Source: Candidatus Saccharimonadota bacterium (GTDB lineage: Bacteria > Patescibacteriota > Saccharimonadia > Saccharimonadales > Saccharimonadaceae). Taken from it: a stretch of 64,000 bases of DNA. The DNA lies in assembly GCA_017404335.1 (NCBI GenBank), contig JAFRCN010000002.1:1-64000 (forward strand), given 5' to 3'. The notes below the pieces were generated by a model. The model made no database searches. It was not told the DNA's origin and saw only the letters and a program-made list of their open reading frames with translations. Both the position numbers and the translations under genes were made by a program. Positions 28,555 through 64,000 of the stretch are shown here, piece by piece. The stretch's first letter is position 1; each line of letters starts with the position of its first letter.

Positions 28555-28644
28555 CTCGACGGGTCCTGCCAGCTTCTCCTCCCCCAAAATTTTTGCTTCG
28601 CAAAACATTTTGGGGGTCCCCCTCCGAAGCTGTCACCCGTCGAG
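28555..28644 (+). repeat. Palindromic element, copy A (intergenic)
   Basis: Three nested helices. P1: CTCGACGGGT with ACCCGTCGAG, 10 bp perfect. P2: AGCTTC with GAAGCT. P3: CCCCCAAAAT..TTTTGC-TTC-GCAAAA..ATTTTGGGGG. Between P1 and P2 are CCTGCC on the left and GTC on the right, shared with the other copies. It fills most of the gap between the divergent GH97 and CapA promoters. Confidence 0.92.
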
Positions 28645-28674
28645 GATATTGATTATGTATGTTATAATACTTAT

Positions 28675-45084: not shown

Positions 45085-45113
45085 TTGACTTTTGGGGTGG
45101 GTTTTAGTATAAT
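45085..45113 (+). promoter_or_regulatory. rplJ promoter
   Basis: TTGACT (45085-45090), 17-bp spacer, TATAAT (45108-45113). Confidence 0.85.
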
Positions 45114-45119
45114 TAGGGA

Positions 45120-45195
45120 AGTTACCAAAGACAGCGACGGGAGTAGTCCTTAATTATGTCGCCGAGGAATTTCTTAGAATTTATTTGGTGACGCT
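45120..45195 (+). ncRNA. Ribosomal protein L10 leader RNA
   Basis: The leader folds into an outer stem GTTACCAA (45121-45128) with TTGGTGAC (45185-45192) and an inner stem GCGAC (45134-45138) with GTCGC (45158-45162), with purine-rich internal loops. This is the shape of the L10(L12)4-binding leader known upstream of rplJ, through which the L10 complex controls its own synthesis. Position between the rplJ promoter and rplJ supports it. Confidence 0.8.
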
Positions 45196-45243
45196 ATTTA
45201 ACAATTAGCTAACTAAATATTAACTTAACCAAAGGAACTTTTT

Positions 45244-45741
45244 ATGGCAATTTCCAAAGATAAAAAGAACACATTGGTTGCTGATCTAACTGCGCTTCTG
45301 AACGATTCCAAGATGGTCGCCTACGCGAAATACGAAGGTTTGACCGTCGCGGAGCTCCAAGAGCTTAGAAAAATGGCACGCGAAGCGGGCGTTAAAATCA
45401 AAGTCGTAAAGAACCGGCTCGTCCGGGTAGCGATGAAAGAGATTGCGGCTTACAAGGACACGGATACGACCGGTCTAACTGGGCAGCTTCTCTATGCATT
45501 GGGGACTGACGAAGATTTCGACGCAGCGAAGGTCTTGACGAAATTCGCTAAGACGCACGCTAAGATGGAGCTAATCGGTGGATTTAAAGACGACGGGGCT
45601 TCGCTCTCGAAAGAGGAAGTTACGACGCTCGGAAATCTCCCGACCAAGAACGAGCTCATCGCGCAGGTCGTGGATACGCTACTTTCTGGTATCAACGGCA
45701 TTGTCTCTGGCTTGGAAAATCGAGAAGAGAAAAGCAACTAA
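45244..45741 (+). CDS. rplJ: Ribosomal protein uL10
   Basis: 165 residues. SKDKKNTLVADLTALLND at the start, VKIKVVKNRLVRVAM in the RNA-binding domain and a C-terminal helix (LLSGINGIVSGL) that binds L7/L12 dimers. Ribosome site CCAAAGGAAC. Second part of a two-gene operon with rplL. Confidence 0.97.
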   Translation: MAISKDKKNTLVADLTALLNDSKMVAYAKYEGLTVAELQELRKMAREAGVKIKVVKNRLVRVAMKEIAAYKDTDTTGLTGQLLYALGTDEDFDAAKVLTKFAKTHAKMELIGGFKDDGASLSKEEVTTLGNLPTKNELIAQVVDTLLSGINGIVSGLENREEKSN

Positions 45742-49192: not shown

Positions 49193-50626
49193 GTGAAAAA
49201 CCTATATAGACGTTATAGACCATTAAGGCTAAGCGAGGTAGTTGGTCAAGATCAAGTTGTTGAACCATTAGGGAGATCCCTCGCCCAAGGGAAGGTGGGG
49301 CATGCTTATCTTTTTGTGGGGCCGAGAGGATGCGGGAAGACGAGTGTCGCTAGAATATTAGCGCATGAGATAAACAGATTTAAATACGAAGTTGAAGATA
49401 ATTATGTAGATATTATTGAAATTGATGGGGCGAGCAACCGCGGGATTGATAATATACGCGAGCTTCGAGAAAAAGTCCTGGTTGCGCCGACGAGCGGGAA
49501 GTATAAAGTATATATCATTGATGAAGTTCACATGCTGACAAAGGAAGCGTTTAATGCGCTTTTAAAGACGCTTGAGGAGCCGCCGGAGCACGTTGTCTTC
49601 ATCATGGCAACGACAGACGCGATAAAAGTCCCGGTGACGATTACTTCGAGAGCGCAAACTTATACTTTTAAGTTAGCAACCTACGAGACGATGTTTAATT
49701 TTCTTAAGTCTGTGGCAGAAAAAGAATCGATTAAAATTACAGATGAAGCTCTTTCGGTAATTACGAAACGGGGCGGAGGTTCATTCCGCGATTCTTTATC
49801 ATTACTCGACCAAATATCTACTTTGTCGGAAAATCAGATTTCTAAAGAAATGGTCGTATCGGCGATGGGGTTACCGGAAGATGAAAAGATTGCGGATCTG
49901 CTCGCTAGTTATTTATCAGGAGATGTTGCAAAGATTACAACACTTTTAAAAGATTTGTTGTCTTCAGGCATCAAACCGGAAACTTTGGCGGAAGAATTAA
50001 TCTCAGAAATACTTGATAATCCGAAACCGGAACTGCTCGATTTACTTTCTAAACTACCCGATGTTAAAGCGCCCTTCCCAGAAGCAAAATTACTCGTGTG
50101 CTTAACAAGTAGAGTGCGGGTGGCCGACAATGTCTTTTCAAGGAACATTTCCAGATTTTCGAGCCCTGAGACGTATATTCCTGACGGACCCGACAGGTTC
50201 GCCCGCGAAGCGGGCGGTTCTGCCGGCGTCCCAGCGTATGACGTCGAAGGCGAGAAAGTCCGTTCCGGAAAAGACATGTCGGACAGGACCCGCACTCAAA
50301 CTGTTCCAGCCAAGGATTTTGACTGGGATGGGTTTTTGGATAGAGTGCAAGAAAAAAATGATGCGGTTTATATGCAACTTAAAAGAGTTACTTACATATT
50401 TAGCGGAGATGCGCTCGAAATCTATCCCGAAAAGCGCATTGCGCGGACGATTTTAATGCGCGATAACAATAAACGGATTTTGATTGACGCAGCGGGTGGT
50501 GTAAAAATTACAATACATGAAGTCGGTGACACCCCGGTAAACGCCGTAAAAGACGAAACGCTCACTAAAATTTCTGATATAATGGGTGGAGAGGTAACAA
50601 ACGATGCAGGAGGTAACCCATTCTAA
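49193..50626 (+). CDS. dnaX: DNA polymerase III subunit gamma/tau
   Basis: 477 residues. Walker A GPRGCGKT (43-50), IDEVHMLTKEAFNALLKTLEEPP, MATTDAIKVPVTITSRA (sensor 1 and SRC-like arginine finger). The four-cysteine zinc module normally found between Walker A and the EIDGASN motif is missing. A poorly conserved linker (about 320-370) contains a palindrome and a motif shared with the mobile-looking elements. At codon 388 lies a likely -1 frameshift site that would give a 389-residue gamma form. GTG start 49193, 7 nt after TGA-TATAAT (49180-49185): leaderless. It overlaps dnaB by 23 bp. Confidence 0.95.
   Translation: MKNLYRRYRPLRLSEVVGQDQVVEPLGRSLAQGKVGHAYLFVGPRGCGKTSVARILAHEINRFKYEVEDNYVDIIEIDGASNRGIDNIRELREKVLVAPTSGKYKVYIIDEVHMLTKEAFNALLKTLEEPPEHVVFIMATTDAIKVPVTITSRAQTYTFKLATYETMFNFLKSVAEKESIKITDEALSVITKRGGGSFRDSLSLLDQISTLSENQISKEMVVSAMGLPEDEKIADLLASYLSGDVAKITTLLKDLLSSGIKPETLAEELISEILDNPKPELLDLLSKLPDVKAPFPEAKLLVCLTSRVRVADNVFSRNISRFSSPETYIPDGPDRFAREAGGSAGVPAYDVEGEKVRSGKDMSDRTRTQTVPAKDFDWDGFLDRVQEKNDAVYMQLKRVTYIFSGDALEIYPEKRIARTILMRDNNKRILIDAAGGVKITIHEVGDTPVNAVKDETLTKISDIMGGEVTNDAGGNPF
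50181..50293 (+). repeat. GC-rich palindrome and element-like motif in the dnaX linker
   Basis: CGCCCGC-GAA-GCGGGCG (50200-50216) sits inside a longer imperfect palindrome (about 50181-50235). At 50282-50293 the minus strand reads GCGGGTCCTGTC, identical over 12 bases to the left arm of the element in cysS (60463-60474). The stretch is GC-rich against its surroundings and encodes a low-complexity linker. It may be a degraded relative of the palindromic element; the full three-helix fold is not present. Confidence 0.5.
50352..50361 (+). promoter_or_regulatory. Putative -1 frameshift site in dnaX
   Basis: Zero-frame codons GAA-AAA-AAT-GAT contain the heptamer A-AAA-AAT (50353-50359). After a -1 slip the next codon is TGA (50359-50361), so the product would stop at 389 residues instead of 477. 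A GGATAGAG stretch about ten bases upstream could act as the ribosome-site-like stimulator. The layout is that of E. coli dnaX (A-AAA-AAG with an early TGA). Confidence 0.55.
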
Positions 50627-59439: not shown

Positions 59440-60843
59440 ATGCTGAAACTATATAATACAGCAAGCCGTAAACTAGAAGCTTTTAAGCCCCTCGGCGAAG
59501 AGGTGAAAATTTATACTTGTGGACCAACGGTTTATAGCGAGCCACATATCGGAAATTACGCGGCGTATACGTATTGGGATTTACTAGTCCGGGCTTTGAA
59601 AGTGAACGGTTTTAAAGTTAAGCGAGTATTGAACTTAACCGACGTGGGTCATTTGGTTTCGGACGGCGACGAGGGGGAGGACAAGCTCGAAAAAGGCGCG
59701 GAACGCGAAGGAAAGACGCCGTTTGAAGTGGCAGATTATTACATTAAGGTTTATTTAGACAATTACGCGAAAATGGAATTTTTGCCGGCGGACGTGGTTG
59801 CGCGAGCGACGTATTATATCGAAGCAGACATGCGAGCGGTAGATTTGATGACTGAGCATGGGTTTACTTATGAAACTACCGACGGGGTATATTTCGATAC
59901 TGCTAAGTTCGCGGATTACGCGAAATTTGCGAGGCTAGATTTAGCGGGGCTACAAGCGGGAGCGAGAGTCGGGTTTTCGAGCGAAAAACGAAATGCTTCG
60001 GATTTTGCGGTTTGGAAGTTTATCCAGCCGGGCGAAAAACATGCAATGCGTTGGGATTATCTCGGGCGGCCGGGCTACCCGGGGTGGCACCTAGAGTGCT
60101 CGACGATCATCCACGAGGTTTTAGGCGAGCCGATTGACATCCATACCGGCGGAGTGGATCATATTCCAGTGCACCACTCGAACGAAATTGCGCAAAGCTA
60201 TGCGGCCTATGGGCACGATTTATCGCGATTTTGGCTACATTGTGATTTTATTACGATTGACGGACAAAAGATTTCTAAGTCGCTCGGGAATACTTATACC
60301 CTCGAGGATTTAGAGAAACGGGGATTTTCGGCGATGGATTATAAAATGTGGCTTCTTTCGGGGCATTACCAAGGGACGAGGAATTTTACATTCGATTCAC
60401 TTGAGGCGGCGAAGAACCGACGGCTGAATTGGCGGAATCGAATCGCGTCATTATTACAATCAGCGGGTCCTGTCGCGCTTTCCTCCCCCAAAATTGACGA
60501 CAATTTTGGGGGTCCCCCTCCAAGCGCACCACCCGCTGATGGTTTTGATAAGATTTTATCCGCGGTAAATAATAATCTCAATTCGGCGGAAGCGTTTGCT
60601 ATAATCGATAATTCCGAATTAGGATTAGACGATTGGCAGAAGATCGACGAGTTATTTGGACTCCGTCTGATTGCCGACTCGCCGGATTTAACGGCTGAGA
60701 TTTCTGGGTTAATACGTGAGCGAGAGGAAGCGAGAGAAAAGAAAGATTTCGCGCGAGCGGATGAAATACGAGACGAGCTAGCTCGACGCGGAGTTACTCT
60801 AAAAGATACTCCAGGCGGGGCGGTTTGGCAATATATTAAATAG
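59440..60843 (+). CDS. cysS: Cysteinyl-tRNA synthetase with palindromic element inside
   Basis: 467 residues. PHIGN stands for HIGH (CGPTVYSEPHIGNY), zinc-site residues include the early cysteine, GWHLECS and HSNEIAQ, and KISKS for KMSKS. Between the catalytic core and the C-terminal anticodon region an in-frame insert of about 27 residues (SAGPVALSSPK to PPADG) is the translation of palindromic element B. The C-terminal REREEAREKKDFARADEIRDEL block is intact. Third gene of the nrnA-hydrolase-cysS run. Confidence 0.95.
   Translation: MLKLYNTASRKLEAFKPLGEEVKIYTCGPTVYSEPHIGNYAAYTYWDLLVRALKVNGFKVKRVLNLTDVGHLVSDGDEGEDKLEKGAEREGKTPFEVADYYIKVYLDNYAKMEFLPADVVARATYYIEADMRAVDLMTEHGFTYETTDGVYFDTAKFADYAKFARLDLAGLQAGARVGFSSEKRNASDFAVWKFIQPGEKHAMRWDYLGRPGYPGWHLECSTIIHEVLGEPIDIHTGGVDHIPVHHSNEIAQSYAAYGHDLSRFWLHCDFITIDGQKISKSLGNTYTLEDLEKRGFSAMDYKMWLLSGHYQGTRNFTFDSLEAAKNRRLNWRNRIASLLQSAGPVALSSPKIDDNFGGPPPSAPPADGFDKILSAVNNNLNSAEAFAIIDNSELGLDDWQKIDELFGLRLIADSPDLTAEISGLIREREEAREKKDFARADEIRDELARRGVTLKDTPGGAVWQYIK
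60459..60540 (+). repeat. Palindromic element, copy B (inside cysS)
   Basis: P1: ATCAGCGGGT with ACCCGCTGAT, 10 bp perfect. P2: GCGCTT with AAGCGC. P3: CCCCCAAAATTG-ACGA-CAATTTTGGGGG. The P3 tip is shorter than in the other copies. Left junction CCTGTC, right junction ACC instead of GTC. It is read through in frame. Confidence 0.92.

Positions 60844-61436: not shown

Positions 61437-64000
<2,564 letters not shown>

Follow-up and report, generated by a model that had tools for sequence, protein, structure and literature searches.

Palindromes that are read as part of protein-coding genes are known mainly from Rickettsia and Wolbachia. The RPE, described as specific to Rickettsia and as measuring 105-146 bp, comprise several families and have no known transposase (PMC2229807). 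A second group, the CGTC REPs (including RPE-4, RPE-6 and dRS3), has one 8-9 bp stem, a loop of 4-5 nt, a CGTC tag and a CCA-like tail (PMC3733652). Among mobile elements that act on DNA hairpins, replication-linked strand use is known for IS608/ISDra2 (PMC6006769).

The element described here was found in cysS of a member of the Saccharibacteria. It resembles the RPE and the protein-coding palindromes of Wolbachia in being short, in occurring both in frame in conserved genes and in intergenic DNA, and in the lack of a known transposase (PMC2229807). Unlike RPE, it resides in Saccharibacteria, has the loops GGGTCCTGY, GGGGNCCC and YCACCC, is oriented by GC skew and has relatives in many phyla. 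No Rickettsia title is among the matches listed for its pattern in a scan of 84,980 species genomes. We read the element as a dispersed palindromic mobile element of the same kind as the protein-coding palindromes (RPE) but as a different family. With the CGTC REPs it shares a palindromic nature, a distribution over several phyla, an occasional intragenic location and the lack of a dedicated transposase (PMC3733652), whereas it differs in that three helices are stacked with two loops between them and no CGTC tag is fixed. The CGTC layout does not fit, as the sequence of the P1 arms is variable, with A or G at position -2, and there are three helices. For Saccharibacteria and Patescibacteria, no description of an element of this kind came up in the literature searched, which included few subscription papers.

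The element copy in cysS and its helices

Within cysS, positions 60460-60539 of the window (the whole 64-kb stretch of DNA analysed) constitute an 80-nt foldback, TCAGC-GGGTCCTGTC-GCGCTT-TCCT-CCCCCAAAATTG-ACGA-CAATTTTGGGGG-TCCCCCTCC-AAGCGC-ACC-ACCC-GCTGA. Its predicted folding energy in the form of single-stranded DNA is -27.2 kcal/mol, whereas dinucleotide shuffles give -9.2 +/- 2.0 (z -8.9). The window contains four copies of the short form (in cysS, queA and tgt and at 28556-28646); together with their host genes they are:

28556..28646, + strand: element copy, intergenic, between divergent genes
59440..60843, + strand: cysS, encoding a cysteinyl-tRNA synthetase of 467 aa; the reading frame continues through the element, which is translated as SAGPVALSSPKIDDNFGGPPPSAPPADG
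60460..60539, + strand: copy of the palindromic element in cysS, with P1 arms at 60460-60464 and 60535-60539 and the core GGGTCCTG...CACCC at 60465-60534
61437..62657, + strand: queA, carrying an element in frame
62248..62336, + strand: element copy inside queA, sense
62651..63841, + strand: tgt, carrying an element in frame
63188..63276, - strand: copy of the element in tgt, in antisense orientation

The outer helix, P1, has 9 bp and consists of five variable but paired positions followed by GGGT/ACCC. Inward of P1 are an internal loop (CCTGY opposite YC) and then P2 (~7 bp, variable yet paired), and inward of P2 come a pyrimidine loop, a variable P3 and the fixed GGGGNCCC. The preliminary description had proposed compensatory change in all three helices of the cysS copy, and this is confirmed: its P1 arms (TCAGC/GCTGA, where other window copies have TCGAC/GTCGA and TGGAC/GTCCA), P2 and P3 tip are all unlike those of the other window copies, and all are paired. 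The claim that this copy differs from the others holds for the window; in the genome, its arms recur in the copy at G000:C6:197682 (G000 being this genome) and its P2 is similar to that of two further copies. The P3 tip, AAAATTG-NNNN-CAATTTT, occurs only once in this genome but is present in sister species (L042, L043, L056, L063, L208). The proposed location in the protein is borne out by Pfam domain positions: SAGPVALSSPKIDDNFGGPPPSAPPADG occupies approximately residues 341-368 of CysRS, in a linker that follows the catalytic domain tRNA-synt_1e (20-325) and precedes CysS_C (414-463).

Pairing is maintained throughout the family. Among the 123 distinct cores compared, 98-100% have standard pairs at P2 positions 3-5, where as many as four Watson-Crick types occur, and G-T pairs make up only 6/615 at P2 positions 2-6. 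The P1 arms, which played no part in choosing copies for the pairing statistics, are paired at positions -2 to -4 in 90-96% compared to 43-69% with shuffled partners; past position -5 arm pairing falls to background, such that inverted pairing is limited to -1 to -5. Even a mismatch covaries, as the pyrimidine pair adjoining P2 is C-T or T-C in 119 of the 123 cores, where 73 are expected. The helices behave as modules, in that the same core is found with different but paired arms. Identical cores are present at unrelated loci: a 79-nt core in three copies with the arms TCGAC, TGGAC and TCAGC, and a 65-nt core in four copies, each in a different arm context. Further inward, a single P3 block of 50 nt is combined with four P2 helices of different sequence, and as many as 13 contexts share the P2 helix CGGACCT. 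Paired arms thus change jointly rather than base by base.

Copies, re-used sites and strand orientation

A covariance model derived from seven copies finds 24 short copies in the 686-kb genome, and further copies in 10/23 congeners and one genome of another family. With a strict pattern, 23 copies are matched in this genome, whereas the same pattern reversed as a control matches nothing. The palindromic insert is read in frame within conserved protein genes, among them cysS, queA, tgt and priA, and other gene-borne copies are found in nrdR, ftsJ, femAB, a PBP gene and a pseudouridine synthase gene. It had been suggested that three tRNA-related genes within 3 kb carry the element, and the neighbouring genes cysS, queA and tgt do. 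The accompanying emphasis on their tRNA-related character is not upheld because copies also occur in priA, nrdR, ftsJ and the other genes listed. Local density is high, as was pointed out, but not significantly so (P = 0.13 for at least 3 of 19 copies within 2.81 kb; 20,000 simulations).

Re-use of sites describes the cluster better. The cysS linker is also occupied by members of the element family in the Saccharibacteria L195 and L217, in L217 in the opposite orientation. Likewise, L176, L216 and L217 have a copy at the tgt site, with constant orientation relative to tgt, and G023, G006 (reverse) and L217 have one at the queA 3' site. Certain protein linkers are therefore used repeatedly, and with these linkers re-hit across species, sometimes in reverse, "hot site" is a better fit than "dense region". 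Copies at the same tgt site have an identical ACA flank and different arms. The idea that the arms are pre-existing target palindromes is not favoured, since the arms end at 5 bp and differ between copies at this one site. The closest relatives are ~20% divergent, and at this distance a fully clean empty site is not demonstrable.

Longer and incomplete forms were also encountered:

50112..50297, - strand: long form inside dnaX, GAGTGC-GGGTCCTGTC-P2(long)-inner palindrome-P2'-GCCACCC-GCACTC
G000:C6:90769-90942, - strand: second long form (L247), GGGTCCTGTCCAAACC...GGTTTGACCACCC
62367..62384, - strand: candidate orphan half-element in queA, GGCAGGACCCGCTCGG, partner arm not found

The dnaX long form is in frame, in the linker ahead of the C-terminal part, and palindromes matching its inner hairpin are present in the infB leader of G018 and in priA of G007. 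The GGCAGGACCCGCTCGG of queA resembles the orphan half of a reverse-oriented element; tgt of G023 likewise retains GCGGGTCCTG, perhaps as a deletion remnant.

Several other observations were made in passing. In cysS of G005 (L020), the same linker holds an unrelated palindrome, AAGCATTCGAA...TTCGAATGCTT. Another in-frame insert is seen in queA at 61767-61850, after RGKLHEGD; at this site sister species have a palindrome encoding FEGIRSAAARGRAPAAHGDGPAGRGPRID, and the tgt genes of G018 and G007 contain this palindrome as well. Elsewhere in the window, two perfect 52-bp direct repeats with a spacing of 82 bp adjoin a tRNA gene (2773-2906), and a ribosomal protein L10 leader (RF00557) is predicted at 45107-45253.

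Within Saccharibacteria, the orientation of the element tracks GC skew and not gene direction. The motif strand is the G-rich strand in 23/24 short copies of this genome, the tgt copy being the sole exception. On both C6 and C4 the GC skew is positive throughout, with genes mostly on the + strand of C6 and mostly on the - strand of C4, and the short copies lie on the G-rich + strand in 12/13 and 6/6 cases, respectively; the five copies on C2, C3 and C5 likewise agree with the local skew. These counts include the copy at 76580, as located by the covariance model. Both long forms on C6 are oriented opposite to the short copies. In named Saccharibacteria records, 51 of 65 copies are on the G-rich strand (p = 4e-6), a figure to be read with local 8-kb skew as a rough proxy for replication direction and with several loci sharing genomes. 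Where skew and gene direction are in conflict in other Saccharibacteria, skew is followed in 27/29 cases. The bias was not found in the non-Saccharibacteria set (20/37).

Distribution and candidate enzymes

The scan of 84,980 species genomes gave at least 115 matching stretches, with ~50 Saccharibacteria stretches among the matches listed. Also among these, the Deltaproteobacteria genome MGSU01, the Omnitrophota genome JACPAY01, the Gemmatimonadetes genome JABDJQ01 and the Krumholzibacteriia genome JAICFA01 each have several matches. The loops of these relatives in other phyla are unchanged, and their P3 is fuller. Of 380 Patescibacteriota genomes sampled, six have the pattern, including one genome of another family with five copies. 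Some single matches in high-GC genomes are probably due to chance. Judged by these matches, the distribution is patchy across unrelated bacterial phyla. The genome analysed here clusters with records of Candidatus Saccharibacteria, many of which are from ruminant guts. A search for carriage by phages or plasmids gave no match; the only viral-contig match (L225) folds differently and is probably a chance hit.

Enzymes that might mobilise the element were sought by gene content. Y1_Tnp is absent from this genome, from all 23 congeners, from G324 and from the element-bearing genomes G417 and G419, and Y1 genes are found in 3/10 element-rich genomes. IS110 is absent from this genome and from all 10 element-rich genomes. 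The serine recombinase (Resolvase) expected for an IS607-type element is absent from G000, G004 and others and present in 4/10 element-rich genomes. Neither of these two is common to element-rich genomes, and both were rejected as movers. A reverse transcriptase, possibly of a DGR, is encoded in some genomes, yet G004 has 12 copies of the element and none of the enzyme. In G007, a reverse transcriptase gene (L046, G007:C3:51587-53347) lies ~1 kb from the only short copy; there is no general association. No autonomous partner element came to light in these surveys. A constant neighbour gene beside the element was likewise rejected, as the neighbours are housekeeping genes only and sites are re-used. 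At the DNA level, 101 Saccharibacteria copies gave no direct-repeat signal of target-site duplication, and no GT[AG]G foot was found at the hairpin flanks, for which the consensus is TCTnnRC/GYnnATG.

Alternative readings and a proposed mode of spread

Reading the insert as an ordinary variable loop of CysRS is scarcely credible. The length of the cysS linker does vary across the genus, and several congeners have different inserts at the site. However, the segment is missing from all 22 congeners with cysS spanning the site and from 7 genomes of other families, and the same sequence is present in non-homologous genes and in intergenic DNA; we have rejected a CysRS protein feature on these grounds. 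Its presence in distant CysRS, named in the preliminary description as the sign of such a feature, was thus not observed. A structured RNA, either a riboregulator or a ribozyme, would attribute the covariation to folding of transcripts. Three covarying helices with conserved internal loops are typical of the structured RNAs in Rfam 15, and many copies are in or near transcribed genes. We nevertheless hold this to be very unlikely, as strand use follows replication skew and ignores transcription in nearly all cases of conflict, copies are both sense and antisense inside genes, and G-U accounts for 2.6% of the predicted pairs compared to 10.4% in folds of shuffled sequence. Nor was any Rfam family matched by the element, with the window searched at gathering cut-offs and seven element-bearing loci to E = 1.

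The GTAG REPs and REPINs with RAYT share the logic of single-stranded DNA hairpins, the related IS200/IS605 elements have a replication-strand preference, IS608-type transposition using the lagging-strand template (PMC6006769), and REPs can be intragenic (PMC3733652). A REP-type repeat moved by RAYT or an IS200/IS605 Y1 transposase is, despite the Y1 genes in some element-rich genomes, highly improbable, given a genus devoid of Y1 genes, flanks devoid of a GTAG foot and an element of 65-90 nt with a three-helix layout as opposed to 20-40 bp; copies in a genome without a HUH protein would also speak against it, and this is largely the situation here. The element is short, repeated, gene-less and bounded by inverted repeats in the manner of a classical MITE moved by a DDE transposase, but the lack of a target-site duplication signal and the different terminal arms on identical cores make this quite unlikely. 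Purely mutational compensation of a functionless sequence, with one arm serving as template for the other (quasipalindrome correction) and further copies acting as donors for conversion, agrees with the near absence of G-T intermediates and with the P3 block and identical cores that appear as if block-replaced in new surroundings. It is unlikely as a full account, since arm copying does not explain the conserved unpaired loops and the covarying pyrimidine mismatch, nor does it explain growth in copy number and spread across phyla.

The insert in cysS is probably a copy of a family of short, non-coding, palindromic mobile elements with a life cycle based on single-stranded DNA at replication forks. 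Spread as a single-stranded hairpin at forks is favoured by the orientation on the G-rich strand, the rarity of G-U pairs, the lack of target duplication and the missing Y1/RAYT, serine recombinase and IS110. On the premise that G-richness marks the leading strand, as it does in most bacteria, the G-rich strand would be the lagging-strand template, on which the element could fold into its hairpin. An enzyme supplied in trans would then recognise the conserved loops and move or copy the hairpin core without target duplication. Copies land in intergenic DNA or in linkers of conserved proteins that tolerate them, where they keep the reading frame in both orientations and are simply translated by the host cell. 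Pairing would be maintained because the folded DNA is the recognised form, and probably also by rewriting of one arm from its partner at the fork, where the inner part could be rewritten from another copy. Template switching between arms or between copies is our preferred guess for the exchange of paired arms. Against this explanation stand the absence here of Y1 transposase, serine recombinase and IS110, reverse transcriptases that do not track the element, the lack of bias outside Saccharibacteria and the two long forms on the opposite strand of C6.

One tentative possibility is that the family represents a class of mobile DNA lacking any known transposase that travels as folded single strands at forks, is recognised through its three conserved loops and not its termini, swaps helices as paired blocks, re-uses protein linkers and has been transferred horizontally among many phyla. 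The mechanism is testable, since the replication-strand signature is clear, a covariance model is at hand and identical cores are numerous. The hosts of the family include Saccharibacteria, which are tiny and streamlined, as well as members of several unrelated phyla, and the family accounts for odd in-frame inserts in essential genes of candidate phyla.
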